Source: Calothrix sp. C42_A2020_038
GTDB lineage: Bacteria > Cyanobacteriota > Cyanobacteriia > Cyanobacteriales > Nostocaceae
NCBI GenBank assembly: GCA_015272395.1
Contig: JACYLQ010000011.1
Coordinates: forward strand, 1 to 64,000
Reading direction: 5' to 3'
Length of the DNA stretch: 64,000 nt
Positions 18,718 through 23,426 of the stretch are shown here, one piece after another. The notes under the pieces were generated by a model. That model ran no database searches. It was not told the DNA's origin and saw only the letters and a program-made list of their open reading frames with translations. Numbering within the stretch: the first letter of the stretch is position 1; every line of letters begins with the position of its first letter. A program made the position numbers and the translations under genes.

Positions 18718-19443
18718 TCAAAACCTTTCAAAACCTTTATTGTTTCCATAATATACAGTTTTGAAGTCAATGTGATTAGTGTTGGAGTTGTAAATGGTAT
18801 AAGTTGCTTGACCTGGGACTCTACCAACATTTCCCACCCCAACAATCTTACGGGGATGAGTATTGACGGTATGCGAGGAAGTTTGAGTATCAAGAGTTTT
18901 AACTGCACAAGTAACAGAACCATTAGTAATTTCGTACTCAAAATTTAAACCCGAACGACCACAAAATAAAGTATTTGCTTGCATTCGCATTACTCGGTCT
19001 AACATTTGTATTGGACAAGTTTCTGAAGTTAACTCTTCGCTTACAGAAACGGTAGAACCGTGAATCAACAAACAATCTAATTCAAAAAAACCAAAATCGA
19101 GTCTACTCAACCAGTGTACAGTTTGACGAGGTACATATTCCCATAGTTGCTGAACTGTTTCCTTACCATATCTTTCGATTAATTCTGTGGGTTCCCCATT
19201 CCCTGTTACAGCATGTAATATCAAGCATTGTTCTTCCCACCATCCTTTACAAACCAAGGGTTGCAGTTCACCACGACGGGGTTTACGCACCCGTTGAACC
19301 AAATGTTCTGATTCTTTGGTTGGTCCAATTAAATCGCCGATAATATATAGTGCTTCAACATAACGCTGGCGCCTGATATCTTGTAGAACAGCTTCATAAG
19401 CTGTAAGATTGCCTTCAACACCGCTCAAAATAGCCCATTTCAT
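18718..19443 (-). CDS. Degenerate metallophosphoesterase paralogue (metal ligands lost)
   Basis: It aligns end to end with the upstream gene product. That protein has SCIHGN, GDLVGYGP, GCWDED, VHGSPH and CGHTH; this one has SGVEGN, GDLIGPTK, GWWEEQ, IHGSTV and CGRSG. The first Asp and His and the final GHTH histidines are gone, so hydrolysis by the usual two-metal mechanism is unlikely. The C-terminal strands (GVGNVGRVPGQATYTIYNS) remain well kept, so the fold is under selection. It is the last gene of the five-gene minus-strand unit that starts behind the Zur box, 26 bases after its paralogue. A non-catalytic partner, regulator or metal-binding role is inferred. The bit of gene past residue 235 approaches the repeat at 18609-18685. 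Confidence 0.78.
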   Translation of the reverse strand: MKWAILSGVEGNLTAYEAVLQDIRRQRYVEALYIIGDLIGPTKESEHLVQRVRKPRRGELQPLVCKGWWEEQCLILHAVTGNGEPTELIERYGKETVQQLWEYVPRQTVHWLSRLDFGFFELDCLLIHGSTVSVSEELTSETCPIQMLDRVMRMQANTLFCGRSGLNFEYEITNGSVTCAVKTLDTQTSSHTVNTHPRKIVGVGNVGRVPGQATYTIYNSNTNHIDFKTVYYGNNKGFERF

Positions 19444-19469
19444 AATCTCAAATCAGTTCTCAATTTACT

Positions 19470-20279
19470 CTATCTAGTACAAACATGTGTGGGGTCATCT
19501 GCACGTTCAGCAAATTCTAAACCACGGGCTAGGCGCCAAGCAAAAATAGCAGGTAAACCGAGTTGAATAATTGCTGTGCAAGTTTTCTGATAATCATAAA
19601 CAACTTCACGCAAGGTGACTTTTTGAGTATCTGTATCATAAATGACATAAGTTGCATTTGGGCGCCCATGTCGTGGTTCACCAACAGAACCGACGTTAAC
19701 AATCTGTTTCAAAGTTGCGCTAAAGCTTCTGTTTTCTTGTTTTTTGGTTGTAACAAGTGAAAAATGCAAGTTTGCAGCATCAAGTGTACGGACGTATGGC
19801 ACATGAGTATGACCGCAAAAAAGCACATCAGCACCAGAAGAAAGTACCCTTTCAAGCGCGACAAAAGCATCAAGTTCGGGTAGCAAATATTCATGATTAC
19901 TGTGAGGACTACCATGAACAAAAGCTAAGTTATCGTGGCGTAAACTATGAGGTAAAGTTGCTAAAAACGCACGGTTATCTGGCTTAATTTGTTTTACAGT
20001 CCACTCATGCGCCCGAAGACTTCTTTTTTCTGCTAGTAATGAGGGATGACTACATTCACAAGCGTTCAAACCTTCAACAATATCCTCATCCCAGCAACCA
20101 ATACAGGAAGGGATATCTAAAGAACGAATTTTTTCTACTACTTCATTAGGGTAGGGACCATACCCAACTAAATCACCTAGACAAAAAACTTGATCACAAG
20201 AGTGTTGGTCAATATCAAGCAAAACTGCGTCTAGTGCCTCAAGATTACCATGAATACATGACATCACTGCTATTTTCAC
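19470..20279 (-). CDS. Metallophosphoesterase (YfcE-like) with Cys at two metal-ligand positions
   Basis: The 269-residue protein has the five calcineurin-type motifs: MSCIHGN (residues 6-12), GDLVGYGPYPNEV, GCWDED, FVHGSPHSN and FCGHTHVPYV. Two positions deviate from the usual form. DxH is CxH (Cys 8), and the Asn of the GN(H/W)D motif is Cys. Both are direct metal ligands in the family, so metal choice may be altered. It starts with GTG at 20279, sharing four bases (GTGA) with the end of the P-loop gene, so translation is probably coupled. It is gene four of the operon behind the Zur palindrome. The substrate is unknown: a phosphodiesterase or nucleotide phosphatase acting in zinc limitation is a reasonable inference. 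Confidence 0.85.
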   Translation of the reverse strand: MKIAVMSCIHGNLEALDAVLLDIDQHSCDQVFCLGDLVGYGPYPNEVVEKIRSLDIPSCIGCWDEDIVEGLNACECSHPSLLAEKRSLRAHEWTVKQIKPDNRAFLATLPHSLRHDNLAFVHGSPHSNHEYLLPELDAFVALERVLSSGADVLFCGHTHVPYVRTLDAANLHFSLVTTKKQENRSFSATLKQIVNVGSVGEPRHGRPNATYVIYDTDTQKVTLREVVYDYQKTCTAIIQLGLPAIFAWRLARGLEFAERADDPTHVCTR

Positions 20280-21079
20280 GGCGCCATTCCTTCTAATAAA
20301 ATCTGTTTAACTTCTTGTTGATATTGTCTAATTGCGGTTTCTGACAATAAACAATCTTGCAAAGTTTGTCCTAAAGAGACTTCATCAAGCTTTCCAACAA
20401 CTTCCAAACCGCTAAAGCGCTGAGGTCTTCCTTCCAAGTTGCGTGGTAAATCTAATTCAAGTAGCCCAGTCGATGGTAAACCTGTTACATACTCAGTATA
20501 AATTGACCGACCATCGTTGACATCGAAAATACCTTTGGCACGAGTAACATTTCCATAAGCGCCATTAGTAACTTCATACCAAAACTCAACCAAACTATCT
20601 TCATCAATAACTTCACCACTCAGAGGGACTCGCCATATCTGGGTAAGGTTATCTATATCAACTTGATCAACTGAGGCGCCGTATACAATATCTGATGCCC
20701 ATTGATGATAAACAGAATCTTCACTATCTGTAAAATCTGGTGGTAAAACAGCGACAGCACGGTAAGGTTGATTATCACCTAATATTTTTGCAATAGTAGC
20801 TAACTCTAAATAAAACCCGACTTCAATATACACAGCATTTGCAAATTTGATCTGGCTTATAAACTCTGCTTCTTGCCCATCATGAAAGACCTTTATCCCA
20901 GGAAATTCTGCTGCTATACGAACTTGGTCAATAGGAACTTTGCCCGTTCCTGGACTAAAATACAATATTTTTTCATAGGTAGATTTGTACTGATTGAATG
21001 CTACTAGCTGTTGAAAAATCCAAGTAGTTTTGCCACTACCTAAAGTTCCAGAAACAACTGTAATTTTTGGTGTATTCAT
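20276..21079 (-). CDS. Reduced CobW-like P-loop protein
   Basis: The protein opens KITVVSGTLGSGKTTWIFQQL, a Walker A of the G3E/COG0523 type, but at 267 residues it lacks the CxCC metal motif, the NKxD guanine motif and the usual C-terminal CobW domain. Later segments (SGEVIDEDSLVEFWYEVTNG and YGNVTRAKGIFDVNDG) resemble the end of COG0523 proteins, where a short C-terminal beta domain handles client contact. So it may be a COG0523 derivative that kept nucleotide binding but lost metal binding. It sits third in the zinc operon, 77 bases after folE with a GTAGAGAC hairpin in the gap, and overlaps the next gene by four bases. The exact function is unknown. Confidence 0.75.
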   Translation of the reverse strand: MNTPKITVVSGTLGSGKTTWIFQQLVAFNQYKSTYEKILYFSPGTGKVPIDQVRIAAEFPGIKVFHDGQEAEFISQIKFANAVYIEVGFYLELATIAKILGDNQPYRAVAVLPPDFTDSEDSVYHQWASDIVYGASVDQVDIDNLTQIWRVPLSGEVIDEDSLVEFWYEVTNGAYGNVTRAKGIFDVNDGRSIYTEYVTGLPSTGLLELDLPRNLEGRPQRFSGLEVVGKLDEVSLGQTLQDCLLSETAIRQYQQEVKQILLEGMAP

Positions 21080-21110
21080 GTAAATACGATTATTAAATCA
21101 CATTGAATGA

Positions 21111-21140
21111 TGTAGAGACATTACATGTAACATCTCTACA
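21111..21140. repeat. GTAGAGAC-family hairpin 3 (inside the zinc operon)
   Basis: TGTAGAGA and TCTCTACA are the outer arms, TTACATGTAA the inner palindrome, separated by a CA/CA internal mismatch. It lies between folE and the next operon gene and could reduce read-through or stabilise the upstream mRNA. Confidence 0.75.
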
Positions 21141-21156
21141 TTCCTTAAACCATGAC

Positions 21157-21798
21157 TTACCTGAAATTCGAGTTGTGACGAACTAAATTCATAAACTCCT
21201 CGCGCGTGCGTGCATCTTCGGAAAACACACCTCGCATTGCACTGGTGACAGTCCAAGAACCTGGTTTTTGTACACCTCGCATAACCATACACATATGAGT
21301 TGCTTCTACAACTACTGCGACACCTTGAGGTTTCAATAAACCTTGCAAAGCATCAGCTATTTGCAAAGTTAATCTTTCTTGCACCTGTAAACGACGCGCA
21401 TACATTTCACAAATACGGGCAATCTTCGATAAGCCAATAACTTTACCATTGGGAATATATGCTACATGCGCGCGTCCAATAATAGGCAGTATATGATGTT
21501 CGCATGAACTAAAGATATCAATATCTCTAACCAACACCATCTCGTTTGCATCTTCGGTGAAAACGGCGCCGTTAAGTAGTTCATCCAAAGATTCACTATA
21601 CCCTTTGGTTAAAAACTGTAAAGCTTTAACCACTCTTTTGGGTGTATCTTTTAACCCTTCCCGATCTGGATCTTCTCCTAACCCAAGTAGCAAAGTACGT
21701 ACAGCTTGAACCATTTCCGCTTCTGTAACTTCTGGCTTTTGCTTTGAAAGTGCAAGAAACTCTGCAGAATTAAACTCCGGATGAAATGATAAAGTCAT
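21157..21798 (-). CDS. folE: GTP cyclohydrolase I (FolE1)
   Basis: The 213-residue enzyme opens the GTP ring to dihydroneopterin triphosphate, the first step of folate and pterin synthesis. The diagnostic segments are present: [20 protein letters not shown] with zinc ligands Cys 99 and His 102, [24 protein letters not shown], and [12 protein letters not shown] with the third ligand Cys 170. It is thus the zinc-dependent type I enzyme with all ligands kept. It lies second in the minus-strand operon, 58 bases after the COG0523 GTPase gene. Pairing of folE with a COG0523 gene under Zur control is known from other bacteria (Bacillus ZagA delivers zinc to FolE), so this copy may be a zinc-starvation duplicate; whether another folE exists elsewhere cannot be seen here. 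Confidence 0.95.
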
Positions 21799-21856
21799 GT
21801 CTTTTGTTTGATGGCTGTTACTGTTAATGTAAGTTAAATTACTTAATATTTCTTAA

Positions 21857-22909
21857 TCATATCAGACATTCTTGCAAACGAGAATGAATTTTATTCGCAT
21901 CAAGATGGCGCCCAATAAAAACAAGCTGATTTTTGGGTGCAGTTTTCCATTCATCCGCATCCAAGTGGTAACGAGGACCGCTAAGTTGGAAAATATGACG
22001 TAAAGGACTATCATCGAACCAGAGAATACCCTTTGCACGAAATATGTCATCAGGCATTTCTTCAAGTAAAAAATGCTCAAACTTATGAACATCAAAGGGT
22101 TTATTAACCTGGAAAGAGACTGAGACAAACCCATCATTTTCTAAATGTTGCGAGTGATGATGGTGATGGTCATGATGATGGTCGTGATGTTCATGTTCAT
22201 GTTCATGTTCATGTTCGTGATGATGGTGATGATGCTCATCCTTTAAAAAAACATGCTCGTCATTCGGGGTTAATTCCACACCTAAAATTAGAGGTAAAGC
22301 AACTTTTCCATACTGAGTACGCAAAATTTTAGCTGTCTGTTTTGTATTACGTATAAAAGTTTCTAGCTCTAAAAGCTTTTCTTCGTGTACCAAATCGGTT
22401 TTATTGAGGAGGATGATATCACCGTATATAATTTGTTTTAGCGCTGCTTCACTCTCGAAATGGTCTTTGTCAAAACTTTCAGCATCAACAACAGTGAGTA
22501 TAGAATCTAAATTTGTTAAGTCTCTCAGTTCAGTTCCTAAAAACGTTAATACAATAGGCAAAGGGTCAGCAACACCAGTAGTCTCAATCACCAAATAATC
22601 GATACGGTCTTCTCGTTCCAAAACTCGATAAACCGCATCGACCAAACCATCATTGATAGTGCAGCAAATACAACCATTGCTCAGTTCTACCATGTCCTCG
22701 TCCATAGAAACGAGCAACTGACTATCAATATTAATATCACCGAACTCATTAACCAAAACAGCGACTTTTTTATCCTGCTTGTTTTGGAGTATTTGATTGA
22801 GCAACGTAGTTTTCCCACTGCCTAAAAACCCTGTAATGATAGTAACAGGCATCCCGCGCTTGGGAATCTCAATATTATTATCTAAGTTAATAGCAGTCGT
22901 ACTAGTCAT
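21857..22909 (-). CDS. COG0523 (CobW/ZagA-type) zinc metallochaperone GTPase, His-rich
   Basis: A G3E GTPase of 350 residues: GFLGSGKTTLLNQIL (27-41, Walker A), CICC at 80-83 (the CxCC metal motif between G1 and G3), ETTGVADP, and LLNKTDLV (guanine-specificity motif). Between the two domains, roughly residues 224-256, lies a tract dominated by His with alternating Glu/Asp, a metal-storage or delivery loop. The C-terminal CobW domain (VSVSFQVNKPFDVHKFEHFL) closes it. AAGGAG precedes the ATG by seven bases. The Zur-like palindrome 82 bases upstream makes it the head of a zinc-regulated operon. The likely role is GTP-dependent delivery of scarce zinc to clients, FolE being the obvious neighbour. 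Cobalamin-type CobW is a weaker alternative. Confidence 0.93.
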   Translation of the reverse strand: MTSTTAINLDNNIEIPKRGMPVTIITGFLGSGKTTLLNQILQNKQDKKVAVLVNEFGDINIDSQLLVSMDEDMVELSNGCICCTINDGLVDAVYRVLEREDRIDYLVIETTGVADPLPIVLTFLGTELRDLTNLDSILTVVDAESFDKDHFESEAALKQIIYGDIILLNKTDLVHEEKLLELETFIRNTKQTAKILRTQYGKVALPLILGVELTPNDEHVFLKDEHHHHHHEHEHEHEHEHHDHHHDHHHHHSQHLENDGFVSVSFQVNKPFDVHKFEHFLLEEMPDDIFRAKGILWFDDSPLRHIFQLSGPRYHLDADEWKTAPKNQLVFIGRHLDANKIHSRLQECLI

Positions 22910-22990
22910 AAACTCTCCTTATACACACATCTCTAATACTACTTAGTACATTCATGACTAAGTATATTAAAGTCACGTTGATATCATAAA

Positions 22991-23009
22991 AATGATAACT
23001 GTTATCATT
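22991..23009. promoter_or_regulatory. Zur-type operator
   Basis: AATGATAACTGTTATCATT is a perfect 9-1-9 palindrome. Its core TGATAAC-n-GTTATCA fits the Zur boxes described for cyanobacteria and other Fur-family proteins. It sits 82 bases before the COG0523 start codon, where zinc-loaded Zur would block the promoter. Site identity is inferred from the palindrome and the genes behind it; another Fur-family regulator is possible. Confidence 0.8.
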
Positions 23010-23096
23010 ATAACGTAAAAGTATTGAGTTTCCATATGAGCTATAAACGTAGGGTAAACTGAAAGCTCCCCAAATTTGTGTCTAGGAGATACATTA

Positions 23097-23426
23097 CTAA
23101 AATTCTGTTTGGGAACGGGTTTCATAAACAAGCTGCAAGCACTGTTCAAAGTCATTCCCTTGCCAAGTTCCCGCAAATTTTAACAAATCTTCTGCTTTTG
23201 AACCTCTAAGAATTGGTGTTGCTTCCTTTATTTCAGGTTTAGTTTTGCTCTCTTGTGGCAGGGAGTGACTACCCTCATCGGTACGATCATCTTTTGGTGA
23301 GGAATCTTCTTGTGCTTCCTCTGACCTTGTTTTTGTCTTGATAAAACGTAAAAAGTCTAGTATTTCAGCTAGGAGAACATCTTCCGAGAATTCAATTTCT
23401 TGAAGTAGTTGTTCTTTAATATCCAT
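23097..23426 (-). CDS. Orphan antitoxin-like protein (DUF2281-type N-terminus)
   Basis: The first 36 residues, DIKEQLLQEIEFSEDVLLAE then ILDFLRFIKTK, resemble the DUF2281/antitoxin helical start. The last 35, PILRGSKAEDLLKFAGTWQG then DDxEQC-like NDFEQCLQLVYETRSQTEF, have the pattern of cyanobacterial antitoxins that clamp PIN-type toxins. Between them is an acidic, polar linker. A toxin gene would be expected just downstream (leftwards), but that space holds only the Zur region. The gene may thus be a relic or a solitary antitoxin. The call rests on motif resemblance alone. Confidence 0.6.
   Translation of the reverse strand: MDIKEQLLQEIEFSEDVLLAEILDFLRFIKTKTRSEEAQEDSSPKDDRTDEGSHSLPQESKTKPEIKEATPILRGSKAEDLLKFAGTWQGNDFEQCLQLVYETRSQTEF

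Follow-up and report, generated by a model that had tools for sequence, protein, structure and literature searches.

Five genes on the minus strand of a 64,000-nucleotide stretch of the cyanobacterium Calothrix sp. C42_A2020_038 (contig JACYLQ010000011.1, positions 1 to 64,000; this whole stretch is the window) lie in a row behind a 19-base palindrome that resembles the binding site of the zinc-dependent repressor Zur. In order, they encode a COG0523 (CobW-type) GTPase of 350 amino acids with a CxCC motif and a His-rich stretch (21857–22909, assigned from its open reading frame (ORF), motifs and Pfam); GTP cyclohydrolase I, of 213 amino acids, from the second folE copy of the genome (21157–21798; ORF, Pfam and the motifs CEHH and CxxxRG); a P-loop protein of 267 amino acids, of a reduced CobW/COG0523 type without CxCC and NKxD (20276–21079; ORF, profile and structural model); a calcineurin-like metallophosphoesterase (MPE) of 269 amino acids with Cys at two metal-ligand positions, C8 and C62 (19470–20279; Pfam and alignment); and a degenerate MPE paralogue (DMPE) of 241 amino acids in which SGVEGN, GWWEEQC and CGRSG replace the metal motifs (18718–19443; alignment and profile–profile comparison). 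The junctions, in the same order, measure 58, 77, −4 and 26 bases. ORFs, Pfam and profile comparison bear out the five same-strand genes and the identities proposed for them in the initial annotation, which had been made from the sequence alone, and its two tight junctions (a 4-base overlap and 26 bases) are also as described. COG0523 and folE under Zur are known; the trio of P-loop, MPE and DMPE genes is the new part of the operon.

The palindrome, at 22991–23009, reads AATGATAAC-A-GTTATCATT on the minus strand with the core TGATAACAGTTATCA, and its arms are 100% complementary. The initial annotation had placed a perfect palindrome correctly before the His-rich COG0523 gene, while the 82 bases that it counted between the two are 81 to the ATG at 22909. 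No other odd palindrome in the window has arms of at least 8 bases; in a first-order Markov simulation, 0.57 palindromes with arms of at least 9 bases are expected per 64-kb window, so that the palindrome alone is not significant and was rejected as evidence in itself. Palindrome scan and motif match together mark it as a predicted Zur-type box, with a perfect match to the Zur-type 15-mer TGATAAYNRTTATCA at 22993–23007, one of two in the 6.53-Mb genome. The other perfect match lies inside a response-regulator-like ORF (L238:11482; G000:C6:249481–249495). The RegPrecise cyanobacterial Zur consensus, as quoted in the available text of PMC9337993, is a longer palindrome, which in our own reading appears to fit the 7-1-7 form used here. 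Searching the whole genome for the box gave weak evidence: when two mismatches are allowed, 306 sites match the pattern, fewer than the 413 of the reversed control and hence no enrichment, and of the 25 one-mismatch sites listed 22 were examined, 16 of them falling inside ORFs. A promoter-like site whose −10 element overlaps the box (TGGAAA-16-TATAAT, 23007–23034, minus strand) is a consensus match only, at 10 of 12 positions, a score equalled by two other minus-strand sites of the region, in which the 17 promoter-like sites are no excess over the 14.6 expected from shuffles. Since neither the palindrome nor the promoter score is significant, support for the box rests on its placement and on comparative evidence. 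Elsewhere in the same genome, thrS and then a DUF1636 gene follow a one-mismatch box located 36 bases before thrS (L239:8722–10980; G000:C6:280721 onwards), and this pair is likely a second Zur unit of the genome; among the Zur targets given for Anabaena PCC 7120 in the available text of PMC6103462 is thrS2.

The P-loop gene was detected in 80 of the 148 genomes that represent the order, and 72 of the 292 genomes in a phylum-wide sample yielded a match with an alignment. Its surroundings were compared in a first set of 60 loci from the 79 other matching genomes of the order (19 were not fetched), in a second set of named loci from the best 80 of 578 relatives, in 20 of the 72 phylum-sample genomes, chosen from other families, and in 16 picocyanobacterial loci (L218–L233) from small genomes (1.7–2.9 Mb) of another family, assigned from genome size and placement. 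MPE is present in all 60 loci of the first set and DMPE in 51. Across the second set, the P-loop gene stands immediately upstream of MPE in 77 of 80 loci, with DMPE no more than 2 kb downstream in 63 of these 77; the three loci without a P-loop match are L160 and L194, at or near a contig end, and L152, which is unexplained. P-loop, MPE and DMPE are consecutive in 14 of the 16 picocyanobacterial loci, one further locus having P-loop–MPE and one a broken P-loop gene. The three genes are a conserved cyanobacterial trio, picocyanobacteria included. COG0523–folE directly before P-loop–MPE is found in 6 of the 60 loci of the first set (L070, L073, L075, L100, L107 and L111), and conservation of gene order, which the initial annotation had named as a check, is broad for the trio and limited for the full five-gene order. 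Fusions between trio genes, sought as a sign of contact, were absent from 140 loci, where one thrS/COG0523 match was seen in L146, and a search for phage-borne copies of the trio returned 36 pattern matches in viral contigs, none of them a relative.

In the relatives, the box tends to stand at the trio itself. Between −200 and +15 of the P-loop start, 20 of the 60 loci of the first set carry a box without mismatch, 35 with at most one and 45 with at most two, compared with 0.9, 2.1 and 3.4% of random windows, respectively, and 0 of 60 for the reversed pattern. For the second set, a box with at most one mismatch precedes the P-loop gene in 30 of 77 cases, hemB in 16 of 29, znuA in 4 of 9, thrS in 4 of 8, COG0523 in 7 of 25, znuC in 2 of 7, hisI in 2 of 11 and folE in 1 of 18; it precedes znuB in 0 of 14, MPE in 0 of 79 and DMPE in 0 of 70, and is found in 2.0% of random windows. 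Judged by these counts, the P-loop start resembles a Zur promoter, and MPE and DMPE resemble genes lying downstream of it. At the picocyanobacterial P-loop genes, a looser box (up to 3 mismatches) is present in 14 of 16 loci compared with 3.0% of random windows; in this group the trio is mostly a tight stand-alone operon and the box is also differently spelled, being TGAGAATGATTCTC-like in several loci. Genes of zinc limitation are frequent within the stretches fetched for the second set: COG0523 in 31, hemB in 29, folE in 18, znuA in 13, hisI in 11 and thrS in 9 of the 80 loci. In a further family, one locus (L235:4290–8943) has the row hemB–folE–P-loop–MPE–DMPE with a one-mismatch box before hemB.

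Zinc genes and the trio also meet on plasmids. Plasmid A of Trichormus variabilis ATCC 29413 carries znuC, znuA, hemB, thrS, a DUF1636 gene, COG0523, a methyltransferase, hisI, a small gene and the trio; a plasmid of Dolichospermum DET69 carries thrS, preceded by a one-mismatch box, COG0523, folE and the trio; both are typed as conjugative. The loci L130 and L133 are zinc-limitation islands (znu, thrS, COG0523 and the trio, with hemB also in L130) on plasmids typed as conjugative. Such clustering, together with the roughly 0.6 palindromes of this kind expected per 64 kb, could mean that the trio merely hitch-hikes in zinc islands and that the palindrome is a chance match. We consider this extremely unlikely, as the loci with a box of at most one mismatch at the start of the P-loop gene span 16 families of the order, and as the looser picocyanobacterial box occurs where the fetched stretch holds none of the zinc genes of the query set apart from three znuC matches, which are weak and generic (56–66 bits) and were not counted as zinc genes.

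An experimental link comes from Synechococcus PCC 7002, in which, according to the available text of Ludwig et al. 2015 (PMC4628125), hemB-II, folE-II, the GTPase-like G0131 and G0132 are upregulated in a zur mutant and with N,N,N′,N′-tetrakis(2-pyridylmethyl)ethylenediamine (TPEN); a flavin adenine dinucleotide oxidoreductase is among the upregulated genes of this cluster on plasmid pAQ7. With old and new locus tags matched by inference from gene order, the gene at the G0131 place encodes a 165-amino-acid P-loop fragment, 147 residues of which are 99% identical to the protein of PCC 7117, and has a perfect box before it; the gene at the G0130 place is unrelated to the trio and occupies the position of MPE in PCC 7117; and the gene at the G0129 place encodes the C-terminal part of DMPE (96%). 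By gene order, then, the gene induced in the zur mutant and by TPEN would be a truncated P-loop gene. The PCC 7002 trio (L243:217–1988; pAQ7 148716–150487) is broken, with the P-loop gene cut after about 147 residues, its C-terminus and all of MPE gone and the unrelated gene in between, whereas the trio of PCC 7117 is intact (L132). The pAQ7 cluster thus resembles the window in its perfect box, its P-loop and DMPE fragments and its genes induced by zur deletion and TPEN, and differs in the state of its trio, which was therefore not described as a module. The published PCC 7002 data already imply Zur control of one of the partners regarded as new, which was not recognised there as belonging to a module.

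Related 7-1-7 palindromes are used across the whole FUR family, and five genes of that family are found in the Calothrix genome. Hence the box might instead be an iron (Fur) or PerR site, a possibility to which the TonB-dependent siderophore receptor among the PCC 7002/7117 neighbours and the iron genes that TPEN also induced in PCC 7002 (PMC4628125, available text) lend something. The same motif, however, stands before the thrS paralogue here and before znuA, hemB and thrS in relatives, and expression of the PCC 7002 gene at the P-loop place also rises when zur is deleted (same source), all of which makes an iron or PerR site very unlikely.

Several observations weigh against Zur control of a five-gene operon and its trio. 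No own box was found at the P-loop gene of the window, where the best match has 4 mismatches; this site lies at −16, near the usual place of the box in many relatives, and, with a chance level of about 3.5% over 15 positions, may at most be a decayed box. Co-transcription of the five genes is an assumption, and another promoter-like site (21116–21089, 9 of 12) lies within the folE/P-loop gap, alongside a stem-loop palindrome (21110–21141, z −2.76) that was not called as a terminator. The description as one Zur box with five genes is not supported in that form and reflects a local arrangement: box conservation is weaker at COG0523 promoters (the 7 of 25 given above), and among the 6 loci with the gene order of the window, a box of no more than one mismatch lies 100 bases or less from the COG0523 start in only 2 (L075 and L100), a third having a two-mismatch box near it. 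No box with at most one mismatch was found at the P-loop gene in 25 of 60 relatives; that of T. variabilis has only a two-mismatch box, and that of Dolichospermum DET69 none with up to two mismatches in the preceding 130 bases. The P-loop gene itself went undetected in 68 of the 148 genomes searched within the order and in 220 of the 292 sampled across the phylum. The hemB, thrS and hisI neighbours were counted by kind of gene, second copies not being told apart per locus, and the locus counts are not independent because the loci are mutually related and the two sets overlap, some contigs being identical. In PCC 7002, G0129 (phosphoesterase) and G0130 lie inside the cluster and were not up in the zur mutant, which the authors found interesting (PMC4628125, available text); the broken trio would explain both why this tail does not respond and why the module went unseen. 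Finally, the zinc- and Zur-regulated genes of the marine Synechococcus WH8102 named in the available text of PMC9337993 include no trio gene, the presence of the trio in WH8102 itself not having been examined.

Taking both sides together, it is highly likely that the operon and its trio belong to the Zur zinc-limitation regulon. The comparative data suggest that the trio forms a conserved zinc-limitation module in its own right, elsewhere often provided with its own Zur-type promoter and here placed behind COG0523–folE. Known Zur-regulated COG0523/folE clusters (PMC6103462 and PMC2770081) likewise pair a COG0523 chaperone with a second folE and have hemB2, thrS2 and znu in the regulon; in contrast to the window, the available text of these papers, supplementary site lists aside, names no metallophosphoesterase and no CobW-like partner without CxCC. 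No paper naming the trio was found in the open-licence literature searched, supplements not being covered, so that the P-loop gene may already appear among the Zur sites listed with PMC2770081; nor did this literature yield a paper joining Zur, Anabaena and a metallophosphoesterase, the nearest being that on PCC 7002 (PMC4628125).

The first two proteins of the operon are typical of their families. The COG0523 protein matches cobW and CobW_C in Pfam and has every family mark tested (Walker A, CxCC, NKxD, CobW_C and the His-rich stretch), and FolE matches GTP_cyclohydroI. Both FolE copies of the genome contain CEHH and CxxxRG, which we take to be the Cys and His motifs of a zinc enzyme. The copy behind the Zur box therefore does not exhibit the loss of zinc ligands expected of a zinc-independent replacement. 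The initial annotation had suggested that the last three genes extend the zinc response into a possibly new zinc-sparing pathway: their link to zinc is well supported by the conserved trio, its own boxes at the P-loop gene, the zinc-gene neighbours and the P-loop remnant of PCC 7002, while a zinc-sparing pathway is unproven.

The P-loop protein appears to be derived from the COG0523 family, from which it differs in lacking CxCC, in lacking NKxD at the G4 place and in its shorter length (267 compared with 350 amino acids). Motifs were read from alignments of 60 P-loop, 59 MPE and 50 DMPE sequences that remained after a length filter, the window included. CxCC is present in none of the 60 P-loop proteins and in 20 of 20 COG0523 proteins; [NTS]KxD occurs in 4 of 60, always at residues 212–224 in the C-terminal domain; and Walker A, GxxxxGK[ST], is found in 54 of 60. 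The window protein matches cobW below the cut-off (14.2 versus 20.7 bits). At E 0.01, 21 of 24 members match CobW_C, the protein of the window not among them; 3 of 4 picocyanobacterial proteins score above the curated cut-off for CobW_C, and the C-terminal domain of the P-loop protein matches the COG0523 profile (E 3.8e-7). The structural model is confident (predicted local distance difference test (pLDDT) 92.1). Its best Foldseek match over the whole length is the COG0523 G3E GTPase YjiA (PDB 4ixm; E 1.3e-6), but with template modelling scores of 0.28/0.24 and a root-mean-square deviation (rmsd) of 18. A second structure comparison gave GTPases of the signal recognition particle type (Z up to 12.3, rmsd 2.8, 131 aligned) over residues 1–135, with no COG0523 chain among the best 50 matches, from which no conclusion is drawn. 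Comparison of the sequence with solved structures gave nothing useful (best E 0.75).

MPE matches its family profile (Metallophos_2, 77.3 bits against a cut-off of 27) and has an unusual set of residues at the ligand positions. Where its nearest solved relative, 3rqz, reads SDVHAN and GNHD, MPE reads SCIHGN and GCWD, that is, Cys for Asp in motif I and Cys-Trp for Asn-His in motif III, so that the canonical ligands are incomplete, although GD, the motif IV His and GHTH are retained; the metal-ligand roles of these positions are presumed. GCWD is found in all 80 MPEs of the second set and the motif I Cys in 77, the remainder being two with Asp and one with an unreadable start (L160 by our own reading, beginning at residue 6); 19 of 19 further loci retain both Cys residues. 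The two orthologues with Asp in motif I, from Crocosphaera (L203 and L205), speak against a fixed two-Cys site; combined with GCWD in motif III, they are a natural half-way form. Because an enzyme that was losing its function would hardly be expected to keep its remaining ligands, the metal site is better described as rebuilt, and the alignment leads us to infer that C8 and C62 bind metal. The MPE model is of middling quality (pLDDT 79.6, with residues 65–79 and 256–269 below 50). It superposes on 3rqz with Z 24.5 and rmsd 4.4 over 213 aligned residues and on the Streptococcus asymmetric diadenosine tetraphosphate (Ap4A) hydrolase SapH (3qfm) with a Foldseek E of 2.4e-14 and, by VIA, Z 22.6 and rmsd 3.2 over 223 residues. 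Both share its fold and the remaining metal-ligand positions, and both have the motif I Asp and motif III Asn where the MPE of the trio has Cys. Asp and Asn are also retained in four outgroup metallophosphoesterases, three of which lie in arsenic-resistance operons on plasmids of Adhaeribacter, Hymenobacter and Rubrobacter (L214:4001–4780, L215:4001–4774 and L216:4001–4768). These three are 34–36% identical to MPE and share with it a CxC after motif III; unlike MPE, they have the motif I Asp, the motif III Asn (GNYD) and arsenic-gene neighbours, and no P-loop or DMPE partner is annotated within 4 kb of them. DMPE reaches the cut-off of no Pfam family but is a near full-length paralogue of MPE by profile–profile comparison (E 2.9e-32); across 50 sequences its motifs I, III and V are changed and most of the ligands are lost.

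A low-zinc phosphoesterase fits the trio best, with a substrate that, judging by the relatives of MPE, may be nucleotide-like. Under zinc-replete conditions, zinc-loaded Zur would sit on the palindrome, masking the −10 element of the promoter, and repress the operon; as zinc falls, the COG0523 protein, FolE-II and the trio would be produced. A catalytic MPE and a non-catalytic, structural DMPE would form a pair, with the three trio proteins acting as one complex. The thiolate-modified dinuclear site of MPE might stay metallated at very low free zinc, or might use iron, allowing the pair to hydrolyse a nucleotide-like phosphoester, and the CobW-derived nucleoside triphosphatase (NTPase), its own metal motif lost, might load or gate the pair. 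As a whole, this biochemical mechanism is speculative and we hold it to be somewhat doubtful.

More specific substrates can be considered. MPE could be an Ap4A (dinucleoside-polyphosphate) hydrolase active at low zinc in stress signalling, for example with the threonyl-tRNA synthetase paralogue of the zinc regulon. SapH, which is among the nearest structures, likewise carries Trp in place of the motif III His, and thrS is a neighbour in 9 of 80 loci; yet a shared fold reveals no substrate, the title of 3rqz names none, and two ligand positions differ from both structures, which leaves this role unlikely. Alternatively, MPE/DMPE might dephosphorylate 7,8-dihydroneopterin triphosphate and so complete the FolE branch of a low-zinc pterin route. 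This agrees with folE lying directly before the trio here and in some relatives, with its occurrence in the fetched stretch of 21 of 60 and 18 of 80 loci, and with SapH being, from its entry title, a relative that acts on nucleotides. The link to folE is not specific, however, because hemB and COG0523 are found near the trio more often (29 and 31 of 80) than folE is, a distribution expected of any zinc-regulon cluster, and no folE was found in the stretches of the 16 picocyanobacterial loci. We regard a pterin route as quite unlikely.

Two further features of the region may be recorded. A 109-amino-acid ORF (23097–23426, minus strand) directly upstream of the box has no family match over the cut-off. 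Palindromic GTAGAGAC...GTCTCTAC stem-loops recur in the window, at 21110–21141 and at about 2878, 34450 and 61102.

The products of Zur regulons have so far been understood chiefly as transporters, COG0523 chaperones and substitutes for zinc enzymes. That these regulons contain a conserved three-gene unit, present in Nostocales and picocyanobacteria alike, points to some zinc-sensitive step that has not yet been named. It is conceivable, although we would not call it probable, that the trio is an ancient cyanobacterial zinc-starvation machine, in which a phosphoesterase, its dinuclear site rebuilt with two Cys residues so as to retain metal as free zinc disappears, is paired with a pseudoenzyme and run by a CobW-derived NTPase that has surrendered its own metal site and serves this one client. 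The exchange of Cys for Asp and Asn in a dimetal phosphoesterase is a ready test of how metal sites adapt to scarcity, and, through its link with a CobW-derived NTPase, the phosphoesterase becomes a defined candidate client of a COG0523-like protein, the clients being a question that concerns the whole family.

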